DNA of 64,000 nucleotides from Bradyrhizobium zhanjiangense (lineage in GTDB: Bacteria; Pseudomonadota; Alphaproteobacteria; Rhizobiales; Xanthobacteraceae): the NCBI RefSeq assembly GCF_004114935.1, contig NZ_CP022221.1, forward strand, positions 3,617,001 to 3,681,000. Direction: 5' to 3'. Positions 34,163 through 43,753 of this stretch are shown in pieces. Below the pieces are notes generated by a model that was not told the DNA's origin, searched no databases, and was given only the letters and a program-made list of their open reading frames with translations. Made by a program: the position numbers and the translations under genes. Position 1 is the stretch's first letter. Every line of letters begins with the position of its first letter.

Positions 34163-35584
34163 ATGAACGCGAAGCCCGGCTTCACCGATTACATCGTCAA
34201 GGACATTTCGCTCGCCGATTTCGGCCGCAAGGAGATCTCGCTCGCCGAGACCGAGATGCCCGGCCTGATGGCCACCCGCGAGGAGTACGGCCCGAAGCAG
34301 CCGCTCAAGGGCGCGCGCATCGCCGGCTCGCTGCATATGACGATCCAGACCGCGGTGCTGATCGAGACGCTGGCCGCTCTCGGCGCCGACATCCGCTGGG
34401 TCTCCTGCAACATCTATTCGACGCAGGATCACGCCGCGGCTGCGATCGCGGCCGCCGGCATTCCCGTCTTCGCCGTCAAGGGCGAGACGCTGACTGAATA
34501 TTGGGACTACACCGCAAAACTGTTCGACTGGCATGGCGGCGGCACGCCGAACATGATCCTCGATGACGGAGGCGATGCCACCATGCTGGTGCATGCCGGT
34601 GTCCGTGCCGAGAACGGCGACACAGCCTTCCTCGACAAGCCGGGCTCGGAGGAAGAGGAGATCTTCTACGCGCTGGTCAAGCGCCTGTTGAAGGAGAAGC
34701 CGAAGGGCTACTTCGGCGAGATCGCCAAGAACATCAAGGGCGTCTCGGAAGAGACGACGACAGGCGTGCATCGTCTCTACGAGATGGCCAACAAGGGCAC
34801 GCTCCTGTTCCCGGCAATCAACGTCAACGACAGCGTCACCAAGTCGAAGTTCGACAACCTCTATGGCTGCCGTGAATCGCTGGTCGACGGCATCCGCCGC
34901 GGCACCGACGTGATGCTGTCGGGCAAGGTTGCGATGGTCGCCGGCTTTGGCGACGTCGGCAAGGGCTCGGCCGCTTCGCTGCGCCAGGCCGGCTGCCGCG
35001 TCATGGTCTCCGAAGTTGATCCGATCTGCGCGCTCCAGGCCGCAATGGAAGGCTACGAGGTCGTGACCATGGAAGACGCCGCGCCTCGCGCCGACATCTT
35101 CGTCACCGCGACCGGCAACAAGGACATCATCACCATCGAGCACATGCGCGCGATGAAGGATCGCGCCATCGTCTGCAACATCGGCCACTTCGACAATGAG
35201 ATCCAGATCGCCGCTCTGCGCAATCTGAAGTGGACCAACATCAAGCCGCAGGTCGACGAGATCGAATTCCCCGACAAGCACCGCATCATCATGCTGTCGG
35301 AAGGCCGCCTCGTGAACCTCGGCAACGCGATGGGCCATCCGTCCTTCGTGATGTCGGCGTCCTTCACCAACCAGACGCTGGCGCAGATCGAGCTGTTCGC
35401 CAACAACAAGGACGGCAAGTACGAGAAGAAGGTCTACGTGCTGCCCAAGACCCTCGACGAGAAGGTCGCCCGCCTGCACCTCGCCAAGATCGGCGTCAAG
35501 CTCACCGAACTGCGCAAGGACCAGGCCGACTATATTGGCGTGAAGCAGGAAGGCCCGTACAAGTCGGATCATTATCGGTACTGA
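34163..35584 (+). CDS. ahcY: Adenosylhomocysteinase (SAH hydrolase)
   Basis: A 473-residue NAD-dependent cytoplasmic enzyme that splits S-adenosylhomocysteine into adenosine and homocysteine. Signatures: [44 protein letters not shown], the NAD loop [12 protein letters not shown], and GHFDNEI. C-terminal KSDHYRY holds the conserved Lys and Tyr that close the neighbouring NAD site. Length includes the extra internal segment (around residues 150-190) seen in proteobacterial forms. Followed by a strong terminator. Confidence 0.98.
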
Positions 35585-35612
35585 TTGTGTCAGGACATTT
35601 GTCCTACTTTTG

Positions 35613-35645
35613 CCGCGCTGGACATGCTGTCCGGCGCGGTTTTTT
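35613..35645 (+). terminator. Rho-independent terminator of ahcY
   Basis: CCGCGCTGGACA-TGC-TGTCCGGCGCGG stem with one mismatch, followed by six T. A smaller perfect hairpin AGGACA-TT-TGTCCT (35592-35605) precedes it. This isolates the radical SAM locus downstream as its own transcription unit. Confidence 0.9.
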
Positions 35646-35750: not shown

Positions 35751-35996
35751 ATGGCGTATTTCAGAGACGCATGGCCTTTGGCTTTTGTTCTGGTGGCGGC
35801 CAACCCCACCAATGCTGCAACTCCAATCGACTCTGATCCTGCTGCGTTCTTCCAATCCGGCAGCCTCGCAGGTGCGCTTGAAGCGGCATCTGCCGATGTG
35901 AAGCAAGACGAAGGCGGTTCGGGTCCGCGGCGGATCCAGCTGTCGCAGTGGTTCAATTTCGCCAATTGTTTTAGCGGGGTCTGGCGAAGGTGTTGA
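35751..35996 (+). CDS. Putative RiPP precursor peptide with tandem WxN/FxN core motifs (GrrA/triceptide-like)
   Basis: An 81-residue peptide, GGAGG five nt before the ATG. Residues 1-22 look like a Sec signal (LAFVLVAANPTNA), then an acidic, Ala-rich leader (about 23-60). The C-terminus reads WFN (67-69), FAN (70-72), C73, FSG (74-76), W78-R-R, C81. Aromatic-x-Asn triplets are the sites crosslinked by three-residue cyclophane-forming radical SAM enzymes (XyeB and GrrM families), and the radical SAM/SPASM gene starts just 3 bp after the stop. The peptide is therefore best read as the substrate, secreted after modification. It lacks the long Gly-rich repeats of classic GrrA, so it would be a short-core variant. 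Too small for firm family assignment by eye. Confidence 0.72.
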   Translation: MAYFRDAWPLAFVLVAANPTNAATPIDSDPAAFFQSGSLAGALEAASADVKQDEGGSGPRRIQLSQWFNFANCFSGVWRRC

Positions 35997-35999
35997 ACG

Positions 36000-37154
36000 A
36001 TGTGGCGTCCGGCTCTCATTGTGCTTCAGCCAACGCCGTTCTGTAACATCGACTGCGACTATTGCTATCTGCGCCACCGCGACGACCGTACCGTGATGGG
36101 TGCAAAGGTCGTCTCTGCGATCCGCGACAAGATTTTTCCCAGGATCGCCCGCGACGCCGCGCCGACGATTATTTGGCATGCCGGCGAGCCGACGACAGTG
36201 CCCATTGCTTGGTATCGAAGCGCCTACACCGAGCTGCGGAAGACGGCGCCAGGGGCGACCAACTTCTCGCTGCAATCAAACGGGATTGGCCTCGGACGGG
36301 ACTGGATCGAGTTTGCCCGAGAGACCGGTACGCAGATCGGACTCTCGATCGACGGTCCGCGAGAGTTTCACGATGCGCGCAGGAAGACGCGAAACGGCAA
36401 GGGGACCTGGGCTCTGGCGATGCAAGCATTGCGAGAGCTGCAACAGGCGCGGATACATCCCAACGTCGTCACGGTCCTGCATCCACTGTCGCTTCAGGCG
36501 GTCGACGCATATTTCGAGTTCTATCGCGACAACGACATCTCTCACGTATCGTTTTCGATTGATGAGTCCGAGGGACGTCATGCGACGAGTTCGTTCGATG
36601 CCGGAGACTACACCGATGCCATCACCGGGTTCCTTTTCGGTCTGATGAAGCGCGCCTATCTCGAGGGCTTCCCGCTGCACATCAAAGAAGTCGAGCGGAT
36701 CGCCTCGATTCTAGCCGGCGGGCAATTGCGCAACGAGCAGATCGACGCCTGGGACGTCCTGGTCGTCGCTGCAAACGGCGATGTGACGACGTTCTCGCCG
36801 GAGTTCATGGAGGTGCGCTCACAGGCGCATCGCAATTTCAACTTCGGGAATATTCTGATCGACGACTTCGATCGGATCTTCACCAGTGCCCTCGTCGCCC
36901 GAACTCAGGCAGAGATTCGGCAGGGCGTGGACCTGTGTCGCGCGCGGTGCCGATACTTCGCGGTGTGCGGAGGCGGCGCCCCATCCAACAAGATGCAGGA
37001 AAACGGGGGGCTCGATTCTGCCGAGACGCAGTTTTGCAGATTCTCCGTGCAGCCCGCGGCGGAGGCTTTCCGTAAGATGATCCATTGGGCGCGGCAAATA
37101 CCCGAGGATCGTTTCATTTCCAATCCGAAATGTTTTGCAGAGCCGCTGACGTAG
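36000..37154 (+). CDS. Radical SAM/SPASM peptide maturase (GrrM/cyclophane-forming type)
   Basis: A 384-residue enzyme. The radical SAM cluster is Cys15-x3-Cys19-x2-Cys22 in LQPTPFCNIDCDYCYL, a sequence typical of GrrM/XyeB maturases. WHAGEPTTVP is the SAM-binding GGEP-like motif, and SNGIGL and SIDGPREFHDARRKT follow. A C-terminal SPASM domain has Cys313, Cys317, Cys323 and Cys346 (CRARCRYFAVCGGGAPSNK), which bind auxiliary iron-sulfur clusters. It should abstract hydrogen from the precursor and join aromatic rings to beta carbons. Starts 3 bp after the precursor gene and is followed by the membrane protein gene after 28 bp. Confidence 0.92.
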   Translation: MWRPALIVLQPTPFCNIDCDYCYLRHRDDRTVMGAKVVSAIRDKIFPRIARDAAPTIIWHAGEPTTVPIAWYRSAYTELRKTAPGATNFSLQSNGIGLGRDWIEFARETGTQIGLSIDGPREFHDARRKTRNGKGTWALAMQALRELQQARIHPNVVTVLHPLSLQAVDAYFEFYRDNDISHVSFSIDESEGRHATSSFDAGDYTDAITGFLFGLMKRAYLEGFPLHIKEVERIASILAGGQLRNEQIDAWDVLVVAANGDVTTFSPEFMEVRSQAHRNFNFGNILIDDFDRIFTSALVARTQAEIRQGVDLCRARCRYFAVCGGGAPSNKMQENGGLDSAETQFCRFSVQPAAEAFRKMIHWARQIPEDRFISNPKCFAEPLT

Positions 37155-37182: not shown

Positions 37183-39387
37183 ATGACGGAATGCCCAGCT
37201 TCTGTTCTCTCCACCTTCTGTATGTGGACGCAGTATCTTCCTCCTATCATTCAGCAGATTACGGGTCCGCAGATTGCATCATTCCTGTTCGGCGTCCTTG
37301 TGGTCGTTGTTTTCTCGGTCGATCATTACAAGGTTCCCACCTACGCTAAAACGACAATCGGCGAATTCATCGAGCTTGCGCCGGAATCGTTGACTTCGCA
37401 TTCGAGATATATGAAGGGTTTGGCAATCTACGTTGCCTTAATGTTGGGCTTCTACTTCATTTTGCTCGCGATTGGCCCGACCGCGATTGCACCAATTCTG
37501 TCCTACATTCCTGGCGGCTCCGACGGCAAGATCGACAATTCGGTTTGGCCACTTGCGGCGACATCGATCATCACTTTGATCGGGAGCCGCGACGACGACA
37601 AATATCTCGGCCGGATGGAGGGTTGGCTCCGATCCATCGCCCATGAGGCGGCCTACATCCCTTATGCGGTGACGAACCTCGCGGTCGCGCTCGACGGTAG
37701 CTTTCCTCTGGCCGACGAAGAGCTGCGCGCCGCAGGAGAATTCTCCCCGGCGACGCAGGCTCTGATCGAAGACAATCAGGAAGGCTCCAGGCAAAATTGG
37801 CTTCGCGCCAAGTTTCTCTATTCGCGGTTGGAGCTGTTGCGAGATCGGGACGATCAGTTCAAGCCGGTGATGAGGCAACCGGAGAACGAGCGTGCATTTG
37901 GGTTCGTTCGCGATCAACGTGATGCCCTGGCCAAGGAGCTTGATCGTGGTGACCCCGGCGAAGATGCTGCGCGGAAGATCGACGCATTCAAGAATGCGCT
38001 CGCAGTGTTCCTGGCATCGATCTTGTGGCGCGCCTGTGAGAACGAAACCGCTGTCAATGCCAAGCTGAGGTCGCTTAAACTCAATGTAAGCACGCCGGCG
38101 CCACGTTCGCCTGCGACTTTCATTTTTCATCTGGCGTTCTATCTCGGTGGCGTGGCGTCTGTTTTCCTGATCGCGCTGAAAATCAGATCGATGCAGTTCC
38201 ATGACGAGTCGGCCCAGCAGAAATGGCACCTCACGTTGGCCTTTTTCGTCTTCCTGCTCACTGCATTCTTCGTTACCCGCTGGCGGGAGAAGCGGCTAGC
38301 CAGCGGCGACTGGAAGTACAGTTCGGATGTCGTCATTCGTTGCGCGATCATCAACACGATCGCCGTCACGCTCATCTCGGTGTTGGTCACATTTGCTGTT
38401 CACCAGGGCGGAAGCGGCCGGTTCTATGCGATGCTCCTGATGGCGTTCGGTATGGCGCTTCCGTCGACCCTGCTATTTCAACTGTTGATGCGCTGGGCTG
38501 CAAGTTCACCTCCGACGGGTGAGGCGGTCGCCGCTACTGTGGGATGCAGTAGAAATCCATTCGAACTGTTCAGGACAACACTTTATGCAGGTGTCAGCTA
38601 TTCGATCATCGCGTTCGTATTCGCATTCGTGCTGTACTGGCCGTCGGATTATACTGTCATCAGCAGCACGCCGCTACAATACGTCGATTCGGCGCTGATC
38701 AGCCTTAACAACATCGACAAGGTAAATCAGGACAAGAGGGACGAAGACAGCTGGTTCCGCACTTCGGTATCACAGGCATCCATCCGAAATTTGGAAGCCG
38801 AGCTGCAGAATGTGAGATCGAGTATCGCGACGGGTAACTATCAGCCTGAAGCGCTGTCTACGATCGTGGCGGAGTGCGATACCATGGGCGACCTGGGTGG
38901 AGGGCGGCGGCTCTTCAACCCAGGTTGCGAACTCGGTGGGCTGCTGTCGACCATAGAGAAGGGCGAGGTCATGTCCAATCTGTATGGGCTACAAATGCAG
39001 ATCTCGAATCTGAAGCCCGCATTCGCAGCTTTTCAGAACTATAAGACCCTTTCGAACGCAGTTCATTTGCAATGGCCAAACGCGTTGCTCGCAAGTCTGA
39101 TGTGGGCTGTGATGGCTGGCGTCTTTGCTGTCTCTGCACTGCTATATCGGCGGCGGGAGCTGTGGGACGGATTGTCCCTCAGGAAGCTGCCGGACTTTGT
39201 GCCGAAGGGGCGGCAGGAGAGGGAATCCTGGCTGCGTACCCCGCTTTACGACCTGGCGAAGCTTTCGCCGCTCGAAGCATTGCGCTATCCAACGTTCCGC
39301 GCCCGGTTGGCGGATAATATGAGCGCGCAGCCGAGCATCCAGCCGAGCATCCAGCCGAGCGTGCCGCACTTGCGAACTGTGGCTTGA
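37183..39387 (+). CDS. Large membrane protein of unknown function in the radical SAM operon
   Basis: A 734-residue protein with about eight hydrophobic segments (near residues 30-45, 65-90, 310-330, 350-370, 390-410, 415-435, 475-495 and 630-650) and two large soluble parts: residues 110-300, helical and charged, and 500-620, with a coiled-coil-like SQASIRNLEAELQNVRSSI. The C-terminal tail has QPSI repeats. Strong GGGAGG ribosome site 5-6 nt before ATG. I recognise no family. Its position 28 bp behind the maturase suggests export, immunity or a receptor for the modified peptide, but it could be independent. Codon use is less G/C-biased than the host norm. Confidence 0.8.
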   Translation: MTECPASVLSTFCMWTQYLPPIIQQITGPQIASFLFGVLVVVVFSVDHYKVPTYAKTTIGEFIELAPESLTSHSRYMKGLAIYVALMLGFYFILLAIGPTAIAPILSYIPGGSDGKIDNSVWPLAATSIITLIGSRDDDKYLGRMEGWLRSIAHEAAYIPYAVTNLAVALDGSFPLADEELRAAGEFSPATQALIEDNQEGSRQNWLRAKFLYSRLELLRDRDDQFKPVMRQPENERAFGFVRDQRDALAKELDRGDPGEDAARKIDAFKNALAVFLASILWRACENETAVNAKLRSLKLNVSTPAPRSPATFIFHLAFYLGGVASVFLIALKIRSMQFHDESAQQKWHLTLAFFVFLLTAFFVTRWREKRLASGDWKYSSDVVIRCAIINTIAVTLISVLVTFAVHQGGSGRFYAMLLMAFGMALPSTLLFQLLMRWAASSPPTGEAVAATVGCSRNPFELFRTTLYAGVSYSIIAFVFAFVLYWPSDYTVISSTPLQYVDSALISLNNIDKVNQDKRDEDSWFRTSVSQASIRNLEAELQNVRSSIATGNYQPEALSTIVAECDTMGDLGGGRRLFNPGCELGGLLSTIEKGEVMSNLYGLQMQISNLKPAFAAFQNYKTLSNAVHLQWPNALLASLMWAVMAGVFAVSALLYRRRELWDGLSLRKLPDFVPKGRQERESWLRTPLYDLAKLSPLEALRYPTFRARLADNMSAQPSIQPSIQPSVPHLRTVA
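39328..39363 (+). repeat. 12-bp tandem repeat coding QPSI units
   Basis: Three copies of CAGCCGAGCATC (the last ends GTG) in the C-terminal tail of the 734-residue membrane protein; copy number may vary by slippage. Confidence 0.85.
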
Positions 39388-39469
39388 TTCCGGTTCATGA
39401 ACGAGTGCTGGAGGTCACGTGTATCGGTTTGGTGGTTGATTTTTGCTCGGATCGAGCGCTAATCAATCT

Positions 39470-40939
39470 ATGGGAGCGCGTGACAGCGAACATTTCGACG
39501 TCCTCATCGTCGGTGCCGGCCTGTCCGGCATCGGCGCAGGCTATCATTTGCAGACGAAGTGCCCGGGCAAGAGCTACGTCATCCTGGAGGGCCGCGATTG
39601 CATCGGCGGCACCTGGGACCTGTTCCGCTATCCCGGCATCCGCTCCGACAGCGACATGTTCACGCTCGGCTATTCGTTCAAGCCGTGGACCGACCCGAAG
39701 GCGATCGCCGACGGGCCGCAGATCCTGAACTATGTGCGCGAGACCGCCGCCGAGAACGGCATCGAGCAGCACATCCGCTTCCGTCATCGGGTCAAGCGCG
39801 CATCGTGGTCGACGCCGGAGGCGCGCTGGACCGTGGAGGCCGAGCGCATCGCGGGCGAGGGCGCACCCGAGCTCGTGCGCTTCACCTGCAATTTCCTGTT
39901 CATGTGCTCGGGCTATTACAAATACGAGGCGGGCTACACGCCGGAGTTCAAGGGGACGGCGGATTTCCAGGGCCGCATCGTGCATCCGCAGAAATGGACT
40001 GAGGACATCGACTATTCGGGCAAGCGCGTCGTGGTGATCGGCTCGGGCGCGACCGCAGTGACCCTGGTGCCGGAGCTCGCCAAGAAAGCGGCGCAGGTCA
40101 CCATGCTGCAGCGCTCGCCGACCTACGTGGTGTCGCGCCCCGCTCAGGATCCCGTCGCCAACAAGCTGCGCCGCAATTTGCCGACGCGGCTTGCTTATCA
40201 CCTGATCCGCTGGCGCAATGTGATGTGGGGAATGTTCTTCTTCCAGCTCAGCCGGCGCCGGCCGGCGAAGGTGAGGGATCTCATCCTTAGGGGCGTGCAG
40301 ATGGCACTCGGCCCCGACTACGACGTCGCGACCCATTTCACGCCGCGCTACAATCCCTGGGACCAGCGGCTATGCCTCGTTCCCGACGGCGATCTCTTCA
40401 AGGCGATCCGCGAGCAGCGCGCCGCGGTCGTCACGAGCGAGATCGACACGTTTACGCGCGACGGTATTCGCCTGAAGGACGGCAGCGAGCTTGCGGCCGA
40501 CATCATCGTGACGGCGACGGGCTTGGTGCTCCAGGTCGTCGGCGGGCTCGAGATCAGCGTCGATGGCCGCGCCGTCGATTTCGCCAACACGCTGACCTAC
40601 AAGGGCATGATGTATGCCGACGTGCCGAACATGGCGTCAGCCTTCGGCTACACAAACGCGTCGTGGACGCTGAAATGCGATCTCACCTGCGAATATGTCT
40701 GCCGGCTCATCAACTACATGGACCGGCATAATTTCCGTCAGTGCATGCCGCACAATGACGATGCCACGATCACCGCGCAGCCCTCGCTCGATTTCACCTC
40801 GGGTTATGTGCAGCGCTCGATCGCCAAGATGCCGAAGCAGGGCTCGAAGCGGCCGTGGCGCCTCTATCAGAACTACGCGCTCGACATCGTCTCCTTGCGC
40901 TTCGGCCGGATCGACGACGGCGTGATGCAATATTCCTGA
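39470..40939 (+). CDS. FAD-dependent Baeyer-Villiger-type monooxygenase
   Basis: A 489-residue flavoprotein. FAD-binding VLIVGAGLSGIGAGYHL at the N-terminus, GGTWDLFRYPGIRSDSDMFT, the Baeyer-Villiger fingerprint FQGRIVHPQKWTED and the NADPH-binding VVVIGSGATAV. These enzymes insert oxygen into ketones to give esters or oxidise heteroatoms. Slightly shorter than classic cyclohexanone monooxygenases (about 540) and close to the EthA-type group. The start is uncertain: ATG at 39470 has no clear ribosome site and an in-frame TTG lies at 39443. Substrate unknown. Confidence 0.87.
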   Translation: MGARDSEHFDVLIVGAGLSGIGAGYHLQTKCPGKSYVILEGRDCIGGTWDLFRYPGIRSDSDMFTLGYSFKPWTDPKAIADGPQILNYVRETAAENGIEQHIRFRHRVKRASWSTPEARWTVEAERIAGEGAPELVRFTCNFLFMCSGYYKYEAGYTPEFKGTADFQGRIVHPQKWTEDIDYSGKRVVVIGSGATAVTLVPELAKKAAQVTMLQRSPTYVVSRPAQDPVANKLRRNLPTRLAYHLIRWRNVMWGMFFFQLSRRRPAKVRDLILRGVQMALGPDYDVATHFTPRYNPWDQRLCLVPDGDLFKAIREQRAAVVTSEIDTFTRDGIRLKDGSELAADIIVTATGLVLQVVGGLEISVDGRAVDFANTLTYKGMMYADVPNMASAFGYTNASWTLKCDLTCEYVCRLINYMDRHNFRQCMPHNDDATITAQPSLDFTSGYVQRSIAKMPKQGSKRPWRLYQNYALDIVSLRFGRIDDGVMQYS

Positions 40940-42823: not shown

Positions 42824-43753
42824 ATGCTGAAACAGCTTTTTGCGCCGCAACTTGTCATTCTGTATGTGCTTGCGGCATCGACGATTTACGTTCACTTCCG
42901 CGGCAAGCAGCGGCTGCGCTTCGCGCGCCAGCTCGGCGATCACTCGACCTACCTCGCACCCTACAACGTGCTGATGTATGCCGGCTCGGCCGTGCCCAAC
43001 AAGCCGGTGATCTCGGTCGATCAGTTTCCCGAGCTGAAGCCGCTGAGCGAGAACTGGGAGACCATCCGCGACGAAGCGGTGCGCCTGTTCGACGAAGGTT
43101 TTATCCGCGCCGCAGCCAAGAACAACGACTGGGGCTTCTATTCCTTCTTCAAGAGCGGCTGGAAGCGGTTTTACCTGAAATGGTACGATGACTTCCTGCC
43201 TTCGGCGCGCACGCTCTGCCCGAAGACGGTGGAGCTGCTGAACTCGATCCCGAGCGTGCACGGCGCGATGTTCGCGATGCTGCCGCCGGGCGGCAAGCTA
43301 GGCGCCCATCGCGATCCCTTCGCGGGTTCGCTGCGCTATCACCTCGGCCTCGTTACGCCGAACTCGAACAAATGCCGGATTCTCGTCGACGGCGTCGAAT
43401 GCGTCTGGCGCGACGGCGAAGCCTTCATGTTCGACGAGACCTTCATCCACAGCGCCGAGAATGCGACCGACGTCAACCGCATCATCCTGTTCTGCGACGT
43501 CGAGCGCCCGATGAAGTTCGGCTTCATGACCGCGATCAACCGCTGGGTCAGCCATCACATCGTCAAGGCGTCGGCGACCCAGAACGTCGACGGCGAGAAT
43601 GTCGGCGTGCTCAACAAGGTGTTCGGCAAGCTCTACGAGATCCATCTCGGCAGCCGCAAGGTCAAGGAGTGGAACCGCAACGTCTACTACACGCTGAAAT
43701 ATTCGCTGACGGCGCTCGTCCTCGGCCTCATCGTGCTGTCGGCGTTGCGGTGA
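42824..43753 (+). CDS. lpxO: LpxO-like lipid A aspartyl/asparaginyl beta-hydroxylase
   Basis: A 309-residue membrane-bound Fe(II)/2-oxoglutarate dioxygenase. A hydrophobic N-terminal helix and a C-terminal helix (LTALVLGLIVLSAL) anchor it to the inner membrane. The iron facial triad is His and Asp in GAHRDPFAGSLRYHLGL and the distal His in FIHSAENAT. LpxO hydroxylates the secondary acyl chain of lipid A at C2. The length and both anchors match. The NTF2-like gene follows almost immediately. Confidence 0.9.
   Translation: MLKQLFAPQLVILYVLAASTIYVHFRGKQRLRFARQLGDHSTYLAPYNVLMYAGSAVPNKPVISVDQFPELKPLSENWETIRDEAVRLFDEGFIRAAAKNNDWGFYSFFKSGWKRFYLKWYDDFLPSARTLCPKTVELLNSIPSVHGAMFAMLPPGGKLGAHRDPFAGSLRYHLGLVTPNSNKCRILVDGVECVWRDGEAFMFDETFIHSAENATDVNRIILFCDVERPMKFGFMTAINRWVSHHIVKASATQNVDGENVGVLNKVFGKLYEIHLGSRKVKEWNRNVYYTLKYSLTALVLGLIVLSALR

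Follow-up and report, generated by a model that had tools for sequence, protein, structure and literature searches.

We analysed a stretch of 64,000 nucleotides of Bradyrhizobium zhanjiangense DNA (hereafter the window), which carries, between ahcY and a flavin monooxygenase gene, a cassette of three plus-strand genes encoding a small precursor peptide, a radical SAM maturase and a large membrane protein (Table 1). The last of these was overlooked in an earlier note on this DNA, whose finding ended at 37154; the residues and coordinates that it gave for the precursor are correct, as is the spacing of 3 nt between the precursor stop codon and the maturase start. The precursor ORF of 81 codons begins with ATG and has GGAGGG shortly upstream. 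Six terminator-like sites were found in the region versus 4.0 expected, so the hairpin between ahcY and the cassette, taken alone, says little.

Table 1. Features of the cassette and its flanks in the window
Feature	Positions	Strand	Remarks
ahcY	34163-35584		upstream neighbour of the cassette
Terminator-like hairpin with T-run	35612..35640	+	13 pairs, 9 of them G-C; between ahcY and the cassette
Precursor peptide gene, 81 aa	35751..35996	+	kept in L040, L041, L042, L043 and L020
Core triplet 1, W67-F68-N69 (putative W-N cyclophane)	35949..35957	+	aromatic-x-Asn in 9/9 Cys-cored membrane-linked loci
Core triplet 2, F70-A71-N72 (putative F-N cyclophane)	35958..35966	+	F-x-N in 9/9 Cys-cored membrane-linked loci
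C73, first tail cysteine	35967..35969	+	6/6 closest loci; 9/12 membrane-linked GrrM loci
Candidate triplet 3, W78-R79-R80	35982..35990	+	W-R-[RN] in 8/9 Cys-cored membrane-linked loci
C81, C-terminal cysteine	35991..35993	+	6/6 closest loci; 9/12 membrane-linked GrrM loci
Radical SAM maturase gene, GrrM/OscB family, 384 aa	36000..37154	+	TIGR04261; Pfam Radical_SAM, 6.5e-16
CxxxCxxC motif, Cys15/19/22	36042..36065	+	39/39 aligned GrrM-type sequences
Auxiliary-cluster cysteines 313, 317, 323, 346 (partial SPASM)	36936..37037	+	39/39 aligned GrrM-type sequences
Membrane protein gene, 734 aa, eight hydrophobic stretches	37183..39387	+	family unassigned by Pfam/NCBIfam
Membrane protein tail (aa 679-701), weakly like Xre/MbcA/ParS C-terminal domain PF09722	39217..39285	+	E 0.27 in the window
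Flavin monooxygenase gene	39443-40939		downstream neighbour of the cassette

The ahcY-monooxygenase junction holds the cassette in the window and in three related loci (L040, L041 and L042), and neither flank was seen around the cassette of L043. None of the three cassette genes was found at this site in 22 other Bradyrhizobium ahcY loci. The distance from ahcY to the monooxygenase gene was 138-1171 bp in 16 of the 22 (176 bp or less in six of these), and no monooxygenase gene was found within 1.5 kb of ahcY in the other six; one of the 22 genomes (G065) carries a cassette of its own at a different place. The cassette is sporadic and occupies a variable junction. About 5.7 kb downstream of the maturase gene, at 42824-43753, the window also encodes an aspartyl/asparaginyl beta-hydroxylase-family protein (PF05118, 1.1e-46), which showed no sign of belonging to the cassette.

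The maturase exceeds the curated cut-off of the GrrM/OscB model TIGR04261 (316.8 versus 310 bits). It had been described as a GrrM/XyeB-type enzyme, of which the first half is retained and the second is not, as the XyeB model gave 47.5 bits against a cut-off of 450. Identity with FxsB (100.1 versus 370 bits), the cyclophane maturase AmcB (231.6 versus 425), DarE (73.2 versus 650) and DynA (122.6 versus 450) was likewise rejected, and the PapB model gave 72.9 bits (cut-off 340). The solved structures related to it at E<=1e-10 comprise anaerobic sulfatase-maturating enzymes and the radical SAM domain of ChlB. Cys15/19/22 are present as previously claimed; these and the four auxiliary-cluster cysteines are kept in all 39 aligned GrrM-type sequences, 32 of which were picked by a filter that itself demanded CxxxCxxC, GEP and TF[SC]PE and seven of which were added without it. 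The "SPASM cysteine set" of the earlier note thus stands for these four residues but is only partial, as S266 lies where a further SPASM cysteine could sit (Cys in 5 of the 39 sequences). The Pfam SPASM model gave 15.3 bits, below its gathering score of 21.5.

The precursor and its compact core

The precursor consists of a weak Sec-like N-terminus (a short and, judged by eye, atypical signal sequence), a spacer, a conserved Gln and a core that ends W67-F-N69, F70-A-N72, C73-F-S-G76-V-W78-R-R-C81. The combination by which triceptides are recognised, i.e. aromatic-x-Asn/Arg/Asp triplets in a precursor encoded next to an enzyme of the type that forms three-residue cyclophanes, is present here. 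Neither a Gly-rich repeat nor multiple tandem aromatic-x-Asn repeats occur in the window precursor, which has two such triplets only. No NCBIfam or Pfam model matched it; the repeat-bearing precursors of L024, L025 and L032 were likewise without a match, therefore this result tells little.

Homologous precursors lie just before the maturase in L040, L041, L042 and L043 (gaps of 3, 3, 3 and 9 nt), which answers a check proposed by the earlier note, namely whether small ORFs adjoin homologous maturases. They are 89, 54, 58 and 37% identical to the window precursor and share 16, 14, 15 and 11 of its last 16 residues, respectively. L020 likewise encodes a homologous precursor immediately ahead of its maturase. 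The leader of L042, for instance, is 49% identical to that of the window and its last 16 residues match at 15 of 16 positions: precursor leaders diverge and cores stay. In three close pairs, those with estimable dS, dN and dS were 0.05 and 0.46, 0.37 and 2.3, and 0.31 and 4.0, i.e. dN/dS of 0.08-0.16, with dS saturated in the last two. The precursor is under purifying selection, and its position and core are conserved in the closest loci. As homologous precursors precede the maturases and dN is well below dS, the small ORF is more than a chance frame.

Twelve loci were found in which a GrrM gene adjoins a relative of the membrane gene, and nine of them have a Cys-tailed precursor: the window, L040 (G252), L041 (G234), L042 (G135), L043 (G235), L020 (an alphaproteobacterial MAG), L118 (G065), L119 (G091) and L151 (G041). 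The window core is SQWFNFANCFSGVWRRC, to which that of L040 is identical; the others are SQWANFFNCFSGVWRRC (L041), AQWFNFFNCFSGVWRRC (L042), VQYFPNFPNFRNCFSGYWRNC (L043), AQFFPNFPNFPNFFNCFNGYWRNC (L020), VQFFNFNNCMRGRC (L118), VQFFNFNNCMRGSWRNC (L119) and VQFFNFHNCMRPNWRNC (L151). In each of the nine, two aromatic-x-Asn triplets stand side by side ahead of the first Cys, and the last residue is Cys. W-R-[RN]-C and C-x7-C occur in eight, the exception being L118, which lacks W-R-N and has the shorter loop CMRGRC, and Gly follows the first Cys by three residues in all except L151. The cysteine count over the nine loci is a product of choice; the fair count is the tail in six of six loci whose maturase is at least 51% identical to that of the window (window included; L040 90, L041 79, L042 75, L043 51 and L020 56%). 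In these six the aromatic-x-Asn pair, N-C and the terminal Cys are all kept, as the earlier note had expected of a genuine core. Two-cysteine tails also occur beside maturases only 33-34% identical to that of the window (L118 33, L119 34 and L151 34%).

The precursors of the other three loci (L047, L048 and L049) end ...KKIAQWRN, with WRN as the sole triplet, and WRN alone thus appears to be a GrrM substrate core. Since WRN or WRR precedes the last Cys in eight of nine cores and WRN-only precursors exist, W78-R79-R80 is a likely substrate; we hold with moderate confidence, from these comparisons, that it is a third ring site, which the earlier note missed. In the portion of PMC11002830 consulted, a Trp-Arg linkage is reported for XncB and not for OscB. 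The cyclophanes had been foreseen as "fused or neighbouring". Neighbouring they would be but not fused, as W67-N69 and F70-N72 have no residue in common, and F74-S-G76 is unable to form a ring of this type, since Gly lacks a beta carbon. The core is, as was also claimed, unlike known GrrA peptides in the window itself, but it grades into (FPN)n repeats through L020 and L043, which form a bridge to precursors such as that of L022 (AQWFNFPNFPNFPNFPNFPNFPNYWRNF).

Gln opens the core in all 18 membrane-linked peptides compared. Among 14 other GrrM tails, [AS]Q opens the core in ten (L006, L010, L013, L014, L022, L024, L025, L026, L031 and L032), lies only near the core start in L029 and L033, and does not occur there in L016 and L034; L018 was discarded as a false match of the pattern. 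For enzymology, the window core is a compact substrate of 16 residues with three candidate rings and one candidate disulfide. In a Rhodospirillales GrrM locus, a W-x-N repeat peptide (L034:7211-7690) seems to lie downstream of the maturase.

The membrane protein and the neighbours of GrrM

No significant Pfam or NCBIfam match was obtained for the 734-aa membrane protein of the window; the predicted structure of a relative (pLDDT 74.8) gave 0 Foldseek matches at E<=0.001 and no clear fold match. The resemblance of the protein tail to PF09722 appears at E<=1 in 9 of 15 membrane-protein sequences, window included (best 6.8e-5), and is treated here as a weak lead.

Profile A1, built from seven membrane-protein sequences, found 19 relatives in 265 Bradyrhizobium genomes (E<=1e-8), and a twentieth (G041) was seen adjoining its GrrM. 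GrrM exceeded the cut-off in 21 of the 265 genomes. It lies alongside the membrane gene in 11 of the 20 membrane-protein genomes, which equals 11 of the 21 with GrrM. Precursors in the 21 genomes are Cys-tailed in ten (the eight membrane-linked ones of the genus plus G101 and G187), carry only WRN in three, and have repeats or an aromatic-rich tail without the Cys pair in five (G153, G210, G026, G150 and G179); none was identified in G134, G151 and G248, the contig of the last ending there. The membrane gene of L042 is cut to 177 aa (L042:8761-9294) next to an intact precursor and maturase, which means either that the cassette can do without a full third gene or that this operon is decaying. 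The membrane protein of L020 is cut by the contig end.

In a maturase tree of 32 rows the membrane-linked enzymes fall into three clades, i.e. the window group of six, L047-L049, and L118, L119 and L151. Forcing all 12 together was disfavoured (p-AU 0.027), and forcing the nine Cys-cored ones together was not rejected (p-AU 0.19). GrrM-linked and maturase-less members are mixed in the membrane-protein tree, in which the deep forks have moderate support (80-90) and L149 and L150 are long branches. These topologies would fit a maturase that was gained or lost more than once.

The Cys tail is not confined to loci with the membrane partner, as G101 (L056) and G187 (L053) have two-cysteine tails (TQFAQNFSNSFQKARCSASNTC and AQFDKAFGNCFRNASSGSGNKC, respectively) and a TPR protein downstream. 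The TPR protein of G101 weakly resembles that of FxSxx-COOH systems (53.3 bits versus a cut-off of 300). Elsewhere, the third-place protein of L029 is weakly TIR_2/FxsC-like, below the cut-off (20.1 versus 130 bits), the third-place module of L027 is an nSTAND1 protein well over the cut-off (1.1e-55), and tetrapyrrole-methylase-family proteins (PF00590) follow GrrM at L026:7179-7964 and L054:3826-4617 (2.6e-17 and 1e-16). The proteins encoded beside GrrM peptides are therefore of several kinds.

Judged by its protein start, a tetrapyrrole-methylase-family protein also follows GrrM in L025; such a protein might add borosin-type backbone methylation to a triceptide. In betaproteobacterial GrrM loci, SYA-type N-termini (L027, L029 and L033) and large PYPGLRPF-type proteins (L027, L031 and L033) occur downstream of the maturase, the SYA-type protein of L029 being the weakly TIR_2/FxsC-like one and the PYPGLRPF-type protein of L027 the nSTAND1 one. 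Triceptide genes thus lie beside a conflict-type module in L027, L029, L031 and L033, of which the first protein of L029 and the second of L027 were scanned.

Peptide-membrane protein pairs without a maturase

Nine of the 20 Bradyrhizobium membrane-protein genomes have no GrrM beside the membrane gene. In four of them a small peptide with a signal-like start (judged by eye) is encoded directly upstream of that gene, ending LAQTGCSSRSGCR (G223), VAQGRCFNGRCY (G194), LAQTGCSSRGGCR (G085) and VAQGRCFNGKCY (G185). No two-cysteine peptide was found beside the membrane gene in G128, G181, G217, G077 and G110, the search in G077, where the ORF is cut, covering fewer passes than in the other four. The wider profile A2, applied to 362 genomes of the class, returned the window and three others: G732, with an upstream peptide ending ...VVAQGRCFNGRCY; G740, whose 41-aa peptide resembles a signal sequence joined to SVAQSTCSGSQRC; and G724, where the peptide is Cys-rich, 127 aa long and of another type. 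Six genomes, of which G732 and G740 lie outside the genus, thus combine a two-cysteine peptide with the membrane gene and no GrrM, and all six peptides carry Val/Leu-Ala-Gln and a two-cysteine tail. GrrM was not found at E<=1e-10 anywhere in these six assemblies, that of G724 holds one weak partial match, and no relatives of 32 GrrM queries occur within the 9.5-11 kb around the twelve maturase-less membrane genes.

Among the ORFs of 35-130 aa (4008 in all) in 558,638 bases, drawn from loci that share some homology, 21 end in the pattern [LVIST][ASV]Q, at most 30 residues, C-x4-7-C and at most two further residues. Fourteen of these are peptides adjoining GrrM or the membrane gene and seven lie elsewhere. 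Against a background of about 7 in 4000, chance is a very improbable explanation for such peptides just upstream of six of the twelve maturase-less membrane genes; as the pattern was written after the peptides were seen, it serves as a consistency check rather than a test.

Near two of the maturase-less membrane genes lies a gene for a PAP2-phosphatase-like protein whose N-terminus carries GGF or GGY repeats (L111:9257-10372 and L116:8402-9358), next to a subtilase-like protein in L111 and a BTAD/TPR protein in L116.

Proposed function of the cassette and rival readings

Based on our observations, namely the gene order, the enzyme family, the conservation of triplets and cysteines and the linkage to the membrane protein, we suggest with good confidence that the cassette is a triceptide-type RiPP operon with a GrrM-family maturase. 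The maturase family is known; the two-cysteine tail and the membrane partner are new as a triceptide variant. The GrrM-family enzyme would bind the 81-aa precursor in the cytoplasm and link a carbon of an aromatic ring with the beta carbon at position i+2, connecting W67 with N69, F70 with N72 and, probably, W78 with R80. By analogy, stapling of WFN and FAN is likely: PMC11002830 describes i, i+2 linkages made by XncB (Trp-Arg and Trp-Asn) and by OscB (Trp-Asn and Trp-Asp), and a Phe-Asn linkage made by XncB or OscB. After export, C73 and C81 would form a disulfide, a step we regard as likely, which would close a nine-residue loop round the third ring. Cleavage would take place at the conserved Gln. 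The peptide would then act with, act on or be handled by the membrane protein of the third gene, and a functional pairing of the two seems reasonably probable.

The closest described systems are OscA/OscB and GrrA/GrrM, with which the cassette shares a maturase over the family cut-off, aromatic-x-Asn at the C-terminus and a Gln that opens the core; the window differs in having only two tandem triplets, followed by a tail that includes WRR and two cysteines, one of them C-terminal. GrrA is a Gly-rich repeat precursor and GrrP its cyanobacterial partner, whereas the window precursor is free of such repeats and the third gene encodes a large membrane protein. FxsA/FxsB/FxsC is approached through other GrrM loci that are weakly FxsC-like (L029) or FxSxx TPR-like (L056), but the window has no FxsC or TPR partner and its maturase falls short of the FxsB model. 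Darobactin and dynobactin (DarE, DynA) share radical SAM/SPASM crosslinking of Trp, which is a prediction for the window, yet the window maturase is far below both model cut-offs. XncA/XncB (XyeA/XyeB) is similar in the Trp-x-Arg, Trp-x-Asn and Phe-x-Asn linkages reported for XncB in PMC11002830, but the maturase does not reach the XyeB cut-off.

To our knowledge, triceptides are known mainly as chemistry, with the functions of most still open. A possible function of this one, put forward tentatively, is that the peptide binds the membrane protein as a ligand, or belongs to it as an accessory subunit, in a signalling or conflict system. The layout resembles that of clusters in which GrrM or FxsB has TIR, STAND or TPR neighbours, the third-place proteins of L029 (weakly TIR_2/FxsC-like), L027 (nSTAND1) and L053 and L056 (TPR) being examples; the membrane-protein tail is weakly similar to a toxin-binding domain of antitoxins; and two-cysteine peptides adjoin the same membrane family where no maturase is present. 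However, the membrane protein has no confident Foldseek fold, and a peptide of this kind was not found in six of the 12 maturase-less loci, of which five belong to the genus and the sixth is G724 with its different one.

It has also to be considered that the peptide is a bacteriocin-like toxin, with the membrane protein providing immunity or shielding the target. Darobactin and dynobactin, products of other radical SAM enzymes, have antibacterial activity according to PMC11002830. A sporadic cassette at a variable site, with a small exported-type peptide beside a membrane protein, would suit such a role. On the other hand, no exporter or protease was recognised among the three cassette genes, multi-pass proteins as large as 530-800 aa are unusual as immunity proteins, and in L042 the precursor and maturase are intact beside the cut membrane gene. 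We regard a toxin as somewhat unlikely.

A different reading of the chemistry, in which the cysteines form no disulfide and are instead linked by the radical SAM enzyme through thioethers to alpha or beta carbons, as known from sactipeptides and ranthipeptides, would make the product a thioether-cyclophane hybrid. Cys73 and Cys81 are kept in all six closest loci, and GrrM and ranthipeptide maturases fall into one broad radical SAM/SPASM group, as the PapB score indicates; that score is, however, far from its cut-off, and the occurrence of a like tail in six genomes without GrrM means that cysteines can serve without the enzyme, which makes this hybrid improbable. A spurious small ORF, with the maturase serving another substrate, would agree with the missing family model, but can practically be dismissed given the position, the purifying selection and the core conserved in the closest loci.

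Returning to the triceptide operon and its membrane partner, it may be that the membrane protein and its peptide form the basic unit, to which cyclophane chemistry is an addition. We propose, with reserve, an unrecognised system made up of a multi-pass membrane protein of 530-800 aa and a small secreted-type peptide that carries a Gln followed by a two-cysteine tail; GrrM chemistry would have been gained or lost repeatedly in it, and the window triceptide would be a stapled version of a ligand or subunit used unstapled elsewhere. No description of the maturase-less peptide-membrane protein unit was found among the matches listed by literature searches on triceptides, GrrM and conflict systems. 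Within a single genus, one membrane-protein family accompanies peptides that are probably stapled in some species and unstapled in others, and through this pairing, what the cyclophane adds becomes directly testable.
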